Positions 4,642-30,832 of a stretch of 64,000 nt of DNA are shown piece by piece. Position numbers and translations under genes: made by a program. The stretch is from Verrucomicrobiota bacterium (GTDB lineage: Bacteria; Verrucomicrobiota; Verrucomicrobiia; Verrucomicrobiales; DEV007), in contig JAJRVS010000113.1 of assembly GCA_024277195.1 (NCBI GenBank), positions 1-64,000 on the forward strand, in the 5' to 3' direction. The notes below the pieces were generated by a model, which made no database searches, had not been told where the DNA came from, and worked only from the letters and a program-made list of their open reading frames with translations. Position 1 is the first letter of the stretch. Every line of letters starts with the position of its first letter.

Positions 4642-6110
4642 GCACAGCTACCGCTAACAAATACCTCGTATCCATCGGCCTTGAAGTGCATGTGCAGCTC
4701 AAGACCAACAGCAAGATGTTCTGTGCCTGTCCCGTTCGTTATGGTGACGAACCCAATACCCTCACTTGCCCGGTCTGCCTTGGCCTGCCCGGCGCAATGC
4801 CCGTGCTCAACATCGGAGCTATCAAACGCACCCTCCGCTCTGGCCTGATGCTTGGCTGCGAAACCCCACCGATCGTCAAATGGGATCGCAAAAGTTATTT
4901 CTACCCCGACATGCCCAAAAACTACCAGATCACCCAATTTGATCTGCCTTTGTGCGAAGGCGGCAAGGTGCCGCTCTATGATCTCGCCTATCCCAAGGAG
5001 GTGCAAAAAAACATCCCCGAACCTGGCAAAAACATCGCCCTTACCCGCATCCACCTTGAGGAAGACGTTGCGAAATCTACTCATCACGCCAGCTTTTCCA
5101 GTATCGACTTCAACCGCGCCGGCACTCCTCTGATGGAGATCGTTTCCGAACCCGACATCACCACCCCGGATGAAGCTTTTGCTTATTTGAACTCACTGCG
5201 CCAGATCCTGGTTTATGCCGGCGTCTCTGATGCTGATATGGAAAAAGGCCAGATGCGCTGTGATGTGAACGTTTCCCTGCGTCCTATAGGTCAGAAAGAA
5301 CTCGGATCCAAAGTCGAGCTAAAGAATCTCAATTCGATGTCGGCGGTGCGTCGTTCACTCTATTACGAAATTGAACGTCAGGGAGAAGCTCTCGACAATA
5401 ACGAAATCATCATCCAATCCACCCGCCGCTGGGATGACTCGATTGAAGAAACCCGTTTGATGCGCACCAAGGAGGATGCCCATGATTATCGTTACCTGCC
5501 TGACCCCGACTTATTGCCCTTACACACGCCTGACCTGGTTGCCGAAGCCAGGCTGGACTTACCCGAATTGCCTCACACCAAAGTAGCTCGATTCGAAAAA
5601 GACTTTGGCATCACTCATTATGACGCTTCGGTGCTTGCCTCCGATCAAAACCTGGCTGATTATTACGAGCAGGCCGCTGCCGGAGCTTCATCGGCGAAAA
5701 AAGTCGCCAACTGGGTGATCAATAATCTCTTGGCCGCGCTCAATGAAAAAAACCTGGATATCACCGACTGCCCACTCAGCGCACAAAGTTTACGCGAGTT
5801 GGTCGACCTGATCGAAGTCGGTCAGATTTCCAACAGCCAGGGCAAAGAGGTTTTCATCGCCCTATTTGAAACAGGCGACAAAAGCCCGGCTAAGATCGCC
5901 AAAGAAAAAGGTTTTGAACCCGCCGACTCCGGTGAGATCGATGCCTTCATCGATCAAGCCATCGCCGCCAACCCTGGGCCTGCTGGTGAAGTGAGTGAGG
6001 GCAACGACAAAGCGATCAATTTTCTTACCGGACAAGTGATGAAATTATCGCGAGGTAAAGCCAACCCCAAACAAGTCGGAGAGGGTATCATAACGCGCTT
6101 GCGCCCCTAA
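4638..6110 (+). CDS. gatB: Aspartyl/glutamyl-tRNA(Asn/Gln) amidotransferase subunit B
   Basis: A 490-residue protein of normal length. It is the ATP-dependent kinase and tRNA-binding subunit of GatCAB, which converts Glu-tRNA(Gln) or Asp-tRNA(Asn) to the amidated form. Diagnostic segments are IGLEVHVQLKTNSKMFC, CPVCLGLPGAMPVLN, the zinc-site cysteines near CACP and CPVC, RKSYFYPDMPKNYQI and DFNRAGTPLMEIVSEPD. The C-terminal YqeY-like tail includes AINFLTGQVMKLSRGKANP. gatA and gatC are not in the window. The start overlaps the upstream CvpA-like gene by 4 bases. Confidence 0.97.
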   Translation: MSTATANKYLVSIGLEVHVQLKTNSKMFCACPVRYGDEPNTLTCPVCLGLPGAMPVLNIGAIKRTLRSGLMLGCETPPIVKWDRKSYFYPDMPKNYQITQFDLPLCEGGKVPLYDLAYPKEVQKNIPEPGKNIALTRIHLEEDVAKSTHHASFSSIDFNRAGTPLMEIVSEPDITTPDEAFAYLNSLRQILVYAGVSDADMEKGQMRCDVNVSLRPIGQKELGSKVELKNLNSMSAVRRSLYYEIERQGEALDNNEIIIQSTRRWDDSIEETRLMRTKEDAHDYRYLPDPDLLPLHTPDLVAEARLDLPELPHTKVARFEKDFGITHYDASVLASDQNLADYYEQAAAGASSAKKVANWVINNLLAALNEKNLDITDCPLSAQSLRELVDLIEVGQISNSQGKEVFIALFETGDKSPAKIAKEKGFEPADSGEIDAFIDQAIAANPGPAGEVSEGNDKAINFLTGQVMKLSRGKANPKQVGEGIITRLRP

Positions 6111-6406: not shown

Positions 6407-6934
6407 ATGAAAAGTATCTTTTATGTTCTATTTTTAAGTTATTTGGCCCTCAACGGATCTTGGGCGGGTGATCTTCAGATTTCCTACAGCATGGATTTGC
6501 CTAGTCACTCCATCGGCCCTGACGAGGATATGGTTAAAATGACCTTTCTGGTGAGCAAAGACGGCAAGCCTGTTGATACCAATCTAAATATTATTTTGGA
6601 TAGTCCTAGAAGCAGCGCGCTTTTTTCTACTGACTTCCCCATTGTCGAAGGCAGTCGGCTTTTTGATGCTTCGGCTTCGACTGAAAATGGAAAATTGGAA
6701 ATGAATTATATGTTTCCAATCAGAGGGCAATATACGCTCAAAGTAAAAGCGGGAAGCACTGATATCATAGCAAAACCTGCTACTGAAACTTTTATCTTTA
6801 CGATTAAAGAAAACCCCGGGGAGGTTATTAACTTCTATATCATGATTGCTGTCCTGATCGTCATAGGACTGCTTGCGGGTTTTGTCTTATCAAAAGCAGC
6901 CCTGCGTAAACTTTCATTGGAGGCGACGGCATGA
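6407..6934 (+). CDS. Exported, C-terminally anchored beta-sandwich protein (YtkA/FixH-like)
   Basis: A 175-residue protein with a signal peptide (MKSIFYVLFLSYLALNGSWAG), an exported beta-rich domain (about 22-140) and a C-terminal membrane helix (about 143-163, IMIAVLIVIGLLAGFVLSKA). The pattern 'DMVKMTFLVSKDGKPVD' followed by 'FPIRGQYTLKVKAG' resembles small immunoglobulin-like domains of the YtkA/FixH type, found near copper and cytochrome oxidase genes. That assignment is tentative. Its TGA overlaps the next ATG by 4 bases and it begins 17 bases after the CbtB-like gene, so the group looks like one operon. Confidence 0.6.
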   Translation: MKSIFYVLFLSYLALNGSWAGDLQISYSMDLPSHSIGPDEDMVKMTFLVSKDGKPVDTNLNIILDSPRSSALFSTDFPIVEGSRLFDASASTENGKLEMNYMFPIRGQYTLKVKAGSTDIIAKPATETFIFTIKENPGEVINFYIMIAVLIVIGLLAGFVLSKAALRKLSLEATA

Positions 6935-7614
6935 ATAACATCCTCACATTCAGCTTGCTGCTTTTATTTGCTCTGCCATTGCCCATACGGGGCCACGGAG
7001 AAAAAGAAGCAAGCTTCGCTGTCACCACCGACCAGGTTTTTGTCGAACAAAATGGCTATCAGCTCACACTAAGACTGGTTCCACAATCAGCCCTCGCTAC
7101 GAGCTCCTCAGATGAAAACTTTGCTGCGTTGGCAGCAAAAGCGGCCGCCTCTCCCGCAGGCCAAAGTTATCAGGCAACTGTGGGCAAACTGGCTTTTCTC
7201 ATAGCCGAGCTGCGTAAAGACAAGCAGTTGGTTGAGAACGTTCGTTTTAAATTGAAATTCCATCATCTCGAAGACGACAAGGATGTCTTCGCCGTCTCTT
7301 TCCTTTCCAAAACAGGCACGATGAATTGGGGGCAGCAATTTTTTGACGGAGCAGAACACCTCATCAGCCTGGAAGTCGAGCCTGTGCATAAAGGCAGTTT
7401 TACTCCCATCCGCACACAAATGAATATCAGCGTCATTGGCATCCAACCGCCAACGTCCGTTGTGTTTCGTTCGTTATTATTACTGCTCACGGTGGCTGCA
7501 TTGGCCATGGCCTTTGCTTATTGGCTGACCTTTATACTAAGTAGAAAAAACGCAGCTCAAACCGATGCGAATGCCGACTTCGCCGGGGCGGTTATTGATG
7601 GAGGGCAATCTTGA
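6931..7614 (+). CDS. Exported, C-terminally anchored protein, partner of the preceding gene
   Basis: A 227-residue protein. The signal peptide ends near GHG (residue 23), leaving a His-containing mature start HGEKEAS. A beta-rich exported domain follows (about 24-180), then a membrane helix (about 184-208). The architecture matches the gene before it (leader, beta domain, C-terminal anchor), so the two may be divergent duplicates or subunits. A strong ribosome-binding site GGAGG (6919-6923) precedes the overlapping ATG. The TGA overlaps the TTG start of the AAA+ gene. No family could be named with confidence. The HG start and the CbtB-like neighbour hint at metal handling, but this is inference. 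Confidence 0.6.
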
Positions 7615-8846
7615 GCAAAACCGAGACAGTCGCCATTCCCGCTTCCAGCGAAGAAGTCGAGGTTCCCAAAACCTTAATCGATCAAGTCATTGGCCAGGAT
7701 CAAGCGGTTGAGATCGTACGACTAGCCGCCAAACAACGCCGCTATTTGCTCCTGGTGGGAGAACCTGGCACAGGTAAAAGTCTCTTGGGACAAGCGGTCG
7801 CCTAACTGTTAGGCGACCAAAAGCTTCATGACATCATCAGCAGCAATAACCCTCAAGAAAGATTGCTTCCAGACATTCAGGTATTAGAAGCCGGGCAGGG
7901 CAATCGCCGGATTGTCCAAGCGAGAAATTTAAAACAACAGAATCTGATCTCCGAACGTTTCATCATCTGGTTCGCGGCGGCGGCCGTTATATTAGTTAGT
8001 CTTTTTTTTACTTTTAAAGCGGACGGTAACTACACCGCCACAGCGCTTGGAGCTGTGTTGCTGTTCCTACTTTATCAACTGCACCAAAACCTGATCAATC
8101 ATAACAGTGCCGCTATTCCTAAAATCCTGGTCAATAATTCCAATCAAGAATACGCGCCTTTTGTGGATGCCACTGGCAGTCAGGCGGGAGCCCTGCTCGG
8201 AGATGTCCGACACGACCCCTACCAGTCGGGAGGATCAGAAACCCCACCGCATTGTTTGTTGGAGGCGGGAGCTATCCATCGCGCCAACGGTGGCGTGCTT
8301 TTTATAGATGAAATTGCCACCCTCAGCATGGAGTCGCAACAAAGCCTGTTAACTGCTATCCAAGACAAGCAGTTGGCCATTTCCGGACGGAGCCCCGGAT
8401 CCAGCGGAACGATGGTTCGTTCCCAACCGGTCGCCTGCGATTTCCTACTTATACTAGCAGGTAATATCGAGGACATCGATAAAATGCACACGGCCCTGAG
8501 ATCTCGCATCCGGGGATATGGCTATGAGATTTTTACGAATAGTGAAATCCCGATCAATCCGGAAAATACCCGAAAAATGATTCAGTTCATCGCCCAGGAA
8601 GTTCGCCGTGATGGCAAAATCCCTCATGTGGGCAAAGATGGCATTGAAGCTCTATTGGAAGAAAGCCGTCAAAGGGCAAACAGAAAAAATTGTTACACCG
8701 CTCACTTCAGAGAATTGGGCGGACTCATTCGCTGTGCCGGTGATCTGGCGGTTAATCAAAATGCGCCACTGATCACCGCTCAACACGTCAGCAAAGCCAA
8801 AACCCTGACACGCACCCTCGAAGAGCAGCAGACGGCTCAAGGGTAA
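7611..8846 (+). pseudogene. Lon-B-like membrane AAA+ ATPase gene interrupted by one in-frame stop; no peptidase domain
   Basis: Reading frame from TTG 7611 (ribosome-binding site GGAGGG at 7600-7605) to 8846, about 412 codons, interrupted only by TAA at 7803-7805. The second part continues in the same frame. Order: Walker A GEPGTGKS (7761-7784), the stop, a two-helix membrane insert (about 7950-8095), then FVDATGSQAGALLGDVRHDP, Walker B with GGVLFIDEI, the sensor region LILAGNIEDIDKMH, the arginine finger LRSRIRGYGYE, and a C-terminal lid. These blocks and the membrane insert are those of archaeal-type LonB. The stop falls where LonB proteins have Glu in A-x-A-E-L-L, so a single GAA to TAA change explains it. 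The frame ends at the AAA+/protease linker, and no Ser-Lys peptidase domain follows. Either a pseudogene, a sequencing error, or a recoded gene. Confidence 0.8.
7796..7818. repeat. Perfect 11+1+11 palindrome centred on the internal stop
   Basis: GGTCGCCTAAC (7796-7806), T (7807), GTTAGGCGACC (7808-7818). The arms are exact complements and the TAA stop of the AAA+ gene (7803-7805) lies inside the left arm. The RNA could form a 9-base-pair stem with a 5-base loop. Confidence 0.95.
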
Positions 8847-29516: not shown

Positions 29517-30832
29517 TCACTGCAATTCATCCATTTTTTCATCCGTCTTACGATTGAGCCTTTTAGTTTCTTGACATTTTTGGTCATAACGCTTTTGGAG
29601 CCCAATACAGGGTCTGTATGAGCAACCAGTTAAGAACAACCCCAAATAATCTACCAAATTCACCCCATCATTCCCGACAAAGCTATAAAGATTATTACCT
29701 CCATTCTCAGCAATCGGATCCCCGTTAATCCACCTTCCAATATAAGGAACATAACTCCGATAGCCGTAATTCACATACCCAGTTTCATCATCAAGGAACT
29801 CTCCTTGGAACCCGAAGCCCCACACGAAGCTACTCACTGCCCTCGAACTAAAGTCAGCTTGCATGATGCGTCTCACACCGAATGCGCTGTACCCACACCT
29901 CTCCTGCACCGCTCCACTGGTATTGAGGATCGCTGTGCAGTTGCCCAAGGCGTCATGAGTTGCGTATAGGCGTTCGTCCAAGGTGCCATTGCCTGTTGTG
30001 TCTCGGTCACGAAGAATCAGGTCATTTCGAAACTGGATTCCCCAGGCATATTGGCGATCTGCGGTGGTCGCGGCGTCCTTGCGTTCTTCAACAGCCTTCC
30101 ACTGGTCGTTGTACTAATAGTGCCGCACCACTCCACTGATGGTCTTGGTTATGCGGCGGGTGGTGCCGTCGTAGGCATAAGTGGCTACCACGGCACTGGT
30201 GCTATCCTTCACTTCTACAAGACGATTCCACGCATTCCATTTGAGCTGGTAGTATTTGCTCCAATCACCATCTTTATCCGGCACCATCTTGTTCGCGTTA
30301 CCCCCTTTATCATATTCAACGTTTTCACTCGATCCATCAAATTGGGTAACCTGATTATCCTTGTTATTCTTACGCTTTTGGTCAAGGTCTACAACCCCGT
30401 CGCTTTTCCTATGTAGTTATCCCAATTCCCGGTCGGGTCATAGGAGAACTCCTCGTCCTTCGCCGGAATACCGCCGATGGCACTGCGATTGATGTTGATG
30501 TTGCGCTCTCCCCGTGCCGCTTCCGTCACCTGATAAAGACCATCATAACTGTAATGTTCGTCCTGACCATCTCCGGCACTCGCCGCGAGATTGGACTTCC
30601 ACGTGCGTTGCGAACTGCGGTCGTAGCCATACTGGAATCGATCCCTCACTGCGCCGCCACGGCTCATTACCCAGGCATGTCCACGGTGCGGCCAAATCGG
30701 TCATAACCGGTGTATTGATCACCCGCGTCGCCCACTGGCGCGCTAGCCGTCTTGATATAAGAAAGGTTCACAGCAGGTTCAGGATAGGACACTTTCGCTA
30801 CGGCGGTCAATCCAAAATAGGTGTGATTTAAA
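29517..30832 (-). pseudogene. RHS/YD-repeat protein gene remnant
   Basis: Three frame segments on the minus strand together read as one RHS core. 30832-30680 gives YPEPAVNLSYIK and YTGYDRFGRTVDM. 30667-30389 gives FQYGYDRSSQRTWKSN and YSYDGLYQVTEA. 30388-29517 gives YYQLKWNAWNRLVEVKD, then FQGEFLDDETGYVNYGYR, the conserved IGRWINGDPIAENGGNNLYSFVGND core end, and a 40-residue tip. There are frameshifts near 30680 and 30388 and an in-frame TAG at 30114-30116 within RHY*YNDQW. No N-terminal part is present. The gene is decayed and not a working polymorphic toxin. It is flanked on its 5' side by inverted-repeat elements that may have helped truncate it. Confidence 0.85.

Follow-up and report, generated by a model that had tools for sequence, protein, structure and literature searches.

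The locus

The window, by which we mean the entire 64,000-nucleotide stretch of DNA analysed here, stems from the genome of an uncultured bacterium and carries an operon of three genes on its forward strand. The first gene (6407-6934) and the second (6931-7614) are both predicted, from homologues and from structural models (pLDDT 87 and 76, respectively), to encode secreted beta-sandwich proteins anchored in the membrane by a C-terminal transmembrane helix; relatives of the second product are often His-rich at their N-terminus. Fold searches with these two proteins return generic Ig-like or beta-sandwich matches, the soluble domain of PmoD among them, which are too weak for a function to be derived from them. 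The third gene (7611-8846) encodes an AAA+ ATPase and is interrupted by an in-frame TAA at 7803-7805. Its start is probably the TTG at 7611, to judge from the overlap with the stop of the preceding gene.

The AAA+ frame comprises 411 codons. As a first-pass annotation of the same DNA had stated, it contains no internal stop other than this TAA. Translation ending there would yield a product of 64 residues that terminates just beyond the Walker A motif, and we propose that the ATPase is lost through this truncation. Beyond the TAA follow 346 open codons, in which Walker B (FIDE) and the motifs AGN and SRIRGYG are all intact; the loss, if any, is therefore recent. A functional gene split in two is ruled out because the first fragment holds only Walker A and the second lacks it. 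An altered genetic code is likewise rejected, as the other long ORFs of the window give no sign of one.

The label "LonB-like", given in the first pass, is appropriate for the ATPase part of the protein only. The LonB profile TIGR00764 matches below its curated cut-off and from position 6 to 398 of 608, where the gene ends; further matches are to PF20436, PF13654 and AAA families. Profiles and alignment agree on an AAA+ module with the membrane insert and the LonB lid, and on the absence of the C-terminal Ser-Lys protease domain. The solved structures nearest in sequence, 4zpx and 3k1j, are both named ATP-dependent protease Lon, and a B12-regulated ATPase system of the kind considered below can easily be taken for an ATP-dependent LonB protease; judged by its sequence, the product of the present gene is not one. 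The protease domain is missing also from seven bacterial relatives (L024-L029 and L092) and is degenerate in two more, L030 and L047. These latter two, from Paenibacillus (L030:4203-7253, L047:4206-6554), have the ATPase fused to N-terminal HEAT-like repeats and to a degenerate Lon protease domain from which the catalytic Ser and Lys motifs are missing. The fusion in L030 additionally carries a nitroreductase domain; the nitroreductase superfamily includes BluB.

The order of the three genes is kept between the window and its bacterial relatives. Homologues of the first partner protein precede the ATPase gene in eight bacterial loci (L024, L025, L026, L027, L029, L030, L047 and L092), and those of the second do so in the same eight, with the placement in L026 known by alignment only; in L028 neither partner gene was found. 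The block of chorismate synthase, an ORF and gatB is collinear in the genome of a member of the same genus (76% DNA identity from 1829 on), and the similarity stops directly after gatB, i.e. after position 6110 of the window, so that the operon is particular to the window's lineage.

The palindrome and the former codon

The stop codon lies within a perfect palindrome of 23 bases at 7796-7818, GGTCGCCTAACTGTTAGGCGACC, whose arms of 11 nt (7796-7806 and 7808-7818) are separated by a single nucleotide and are 100% complementary, exactly as the first-pass annotation had described it. Within the 5.49 Mb genome the palindrome has a single occurrence, with no further match at up to 3 mismatches, which rules out a dispersed repeat family. 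None turned up in shuffled sequences of the window; eight perfect palindromes with arms of at least 11 and a loop of at most 10 are present in 264 kb of the same genome. As single-stranded DNA either strand folds into a stem of 10 bp with a loop of 3 nt and a folding energy of about -12 kcal/mol (z-scores of -4.6 and -5.3). A transcription terminator is ruled out, the hairpin being followed by AAAAGC and not by a run of T.

Eighty homologues were drawn from the genomes of 84,980 species. The column of the stop is occupied by Glu in 72 of them (53 GAA, 19 GAG), by Gln in five and by Asp in three, and none has a stop there. A Lentisphaerales bacterium supplies the best homologue (58% identity), in which this column reads GAA, and GAA accounts for 67% of the Glu codons in the window's clear genes. 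The Glu column, the intact remainder of the frame and this codon usage make GAA the likeliest former codon at 7803-7805, with CAA (Gln) as a less likely alternative; the change from GAA to TAA is one transversion. At strict cut-offs no orthologue was found in 75 genomes of the family, 387 sampled from the order and 388 sampled from the phylum, so that the ancestral codon and an imperfect palindrome around it can only be inferred.

The first-pass annotation had postulated a conserved Glu and an ancestral GAA that left one mismatch in the palindrome, and had tied its reading to the presence of both Glu and the hairpin arms in homologues. The conservation of Glu and the prevalence of GAA bear out the first part. 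The arms are absent from this site in the 80 homologues, whose divergence is too great to reveal any imperfect repeat, and the single mismatch stays a deduction, since the sister genomes compared do not have the gene. None of the 80 homologues has the Gly-Asp that the right arm encodes, for which reason an earlier change in this arm is also possible.

The same comparison bears on the suggestion, likewise made in the first pass, of a programmed readthrough of the TAA with the help of the hairpin. The open frame downstream and a stable hairpin over the stop speak for such a mechanism, but neither stop nor structure is conserved in any of the 80 homologues, the stop lies within the stem, which a ribosome positioned at the TAA would already have opened, and the wider RNA fold around the hairpin is unremarkable (z -1.8). 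We know of no dedicated TAA recoding system in bacteria, and we regard programmed readthrough or recoding as highly improbable.

Chance, error and template switching

How often a nonsense mutation completes such a palindrome was determined by scoring every possible single-base nonsense change in ORFs of at least 250 codons from about 297 kb of the genome, with a perfect palindrome (arms of at least 11, loop of at most 10) as the scored outcome. Only two of 29,066 changes had this effect, and none of the 4,882 at Glu codons, which corresponds to roughly one in every 14,000 random nonsense changes; a smaller sample of 16,000 sites likewise contained two. When synonymous codons were shuffled with protein and TAA held fixed, an arm of 11 was reached in 2 of 5000 shuffles. 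By both measures the association of mutation and repeat exceeds chance, and the former makes chance a poor explanation for the link between stop and palindrome.

We also have to consider that an ordinary point mutation may have hit an unneeded gene and completed a near-palindrome by accident. Many genes had been scanned before the AAA+ gene was picked, and some rare coincidences are to be expected in a scan of such breadth. Other genes of the genome are interrupted as well: in a sulfatase on another contig (C75), a TAA (L128:1726-1728; LY-stop-GGMRVPL) stands before GG-RVPL, at a position where sulfatases have a conserved Glu, and no palindrome with an arm longer than 5 is found there. Nonsense mutations of the ordinary kind thus occur too, and the link with a hairpin is special to the AAA+ gene. 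Set against the rarity of palindrome-completing changes, an accident of this sort appears rather unlikely. Several more sulfatase matches of the same genome contain stops. In the window itself, an RHS-repeat-like frame on the reverse strand (RHY-stop-YNDQWKAVEE) is broken by a TAG at 30116 and looks like a gene remnant.

Alternatively, the living gene may be intact and the TAA an error of sequencing, amplification or assembly, be it a miscall at the hairpin or a base of a minority strain that entered the consensus. The genome is assembled in 422 contigs, the rest of the frame is perfectly intact, and inverted repeats and GGC motifs have been reported as triggers of Illumina errors (PMC3622629). 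Such miscalls are, on the other hand, usually strand-specific and outvoted in the consensus, and dephasing does not predict the exact base that completes a palindrome, although template switching by a polymerase in vitro could produce it. We give error the same low probability as accident.

If the mutation is real, the reading that we favour, with some reservation, is a recent nonsense mutation templated by a quasipalindrome. Template switching at quasipalindromes leaves the repeat perfect or more perfect than before, as at a hotspot that occurs naturally in thyA of E. coli (PMC7202029); it homogenizes the arms of inverted repeats in coding genes of yeast and favoured transversions in earlier bacterial data (PMC8604942). 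The codons for Val-Ala-Glu-Leu-Leu-Gly-Asp would have held an inverted repeat that was still imperfect; this would have folded back on itself, and the polymerase would have copied one arm off the other, whereby the repeat turned perfect and the Glu codon became TAA. Loss of the ATPase may have been tolerated in an operon without a riboswitch and in a genome without key cobalamin genes (see below).

In every respect open to testing without the ancestor, template switching fits the site at 7803-7805. The single-base change itself is indistinguishable from an ordinary mutation, and the palindrome is the only argument for a template switch. The present repeat is perfect, while its earlier imperfect state is deduced from the Glu column and is seen in no allele. 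The quasipalindromic origin advanced by the first-pass annotation is accordingly supported by the conserved Glu, the lone break, the perfect palindrome and the excess over chance, and it is in the ancestral repeat that it goes beyond them. We infer, rather than observe, the ancestral codon, the template switch, the reality of the stop in the population and the relaxed selection.

The link to B12

A link of this ATPase family to B12, which the first-pass annotation does not mention, emerges from the bacterial relatives. According to Rfam, a cobalamin riboswitch lies upstream in five of the nine bacterial loci (L024:3284-5981, L026:3137-6005, L029:2665-6017, L030:2671-7253 and L092:628-4123), and its end lies some 130-310 nt ahead of the first gene (270-500 nt if counted from its start). 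The five belong to Lentisphaerales, a proteobacterium, Brevibacillus, Paenibacillus and Thermoflavimicrobium. In L024, L025, L027 and L028 the genes sit among cobalamin genes, which from their sequences we take to be of the CobQ, CobB, CbiX, CbiD and CbiC types; Pfam confirms CbiX and DUF3209 in L024. A cobalamin riboswitch or a cob/cbi neighbourhood is thus found in 8 of the 9 bacterial loci, three of which count by their clusters without a riboswitch; L047 has neither the riboswitch nor cobalamin genes nearby, and the riboswitch is present in none of ten archaeal LonB loci.

DUF3209 proteins follow CbiX in four loci (L024:7197-7568, L025:7208-7576, L027:7198-7566 and L028:7268-7702), identified by the Pfam match in L024 and by similar MACHE.ALRLG proteins in the other three, and possibly represent another protein with a link to B12, as yet uncharacterised. 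Our literature search found no paper that treats LonB together with a cobalamin riboswitch, nor one that connects DUF3209 to cobalamin.

At the window's own operon neither a cobalamin riboswitch nor cob/cbi neighbours were found, and CbiD and CbiC are missing from the window's genome, which appears unable to make B12, and from its two genus mates. Without the riboswitch and these two genes the operon has the appearance of an orphan that the cell can do without, and a nonsense mutation could thus persist in it.

Judged by context alone, the ATPase operon may have a role in cobalt or corrinoid handling. As a tentative proposal, which we hold with less confidence than the origin of the stop, the operon would encode a membrane system under the control of a cobalamin riboswitch, composed of a protease-less AAA+ ATPase derived from LonB and two beta-sandwich partners (His-rich in several relatives), that possibly imports cobalt or corrinoids or hands cobalt to the CbiX chelatase, and that was lost here by a hairpin-templated stop after its separation from B12 synthesis. 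If it does move cobalt or corrinoids, an unrecognised transport or metal-delivery machine would be added to cobalamin biology. We consider the B12-linked, protease-less LonB-like operon a more interesting lead than the mutation, which is ordinary in kind and serves mainly as an example, a natural candidate for gene inactivation by a quasipalindrome in an uncultured bacterium.

Comparison with known systems

The site shares a now-perfect inverted repeat with a short loop with the quasipalindrome mutations known from E. coli thyA and lacZ reporters (PMC7202029) and from yeast (PMC8604942). It differs from these in that a stop codon was created, in an uncultured bacterium, and in that its imperfect ancestral repeat is a presumed one.

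With archaeal LonB (TIGR00764; Thermococcus-type 3k1j and 4zpx) the ATPase has in common the AAA+ module, the membrane insert between Walker A and Walker B and the LonB lid, at 47-48% identity across the downstream part. Unlike archaeal LonB, it has no Ser-Lys protease domain, shares its operon with the genes of two membrane-anchored proteins of the beta-sandwich type and has bacterial relatives in a B12 context.

Cobalamin riboswitches control cobalt and corrinoid transporters of the ECF/CbiMNQO and BtuFCD types, and the bacterial loci resemble these in their riboswitch or cob/cbi neighbourhood. In place of an ABC or ECF module, however, the present system consists of a LonB-derived AAA+ ATPase and two beta-sandwich proteins predicted to span the membrane once.
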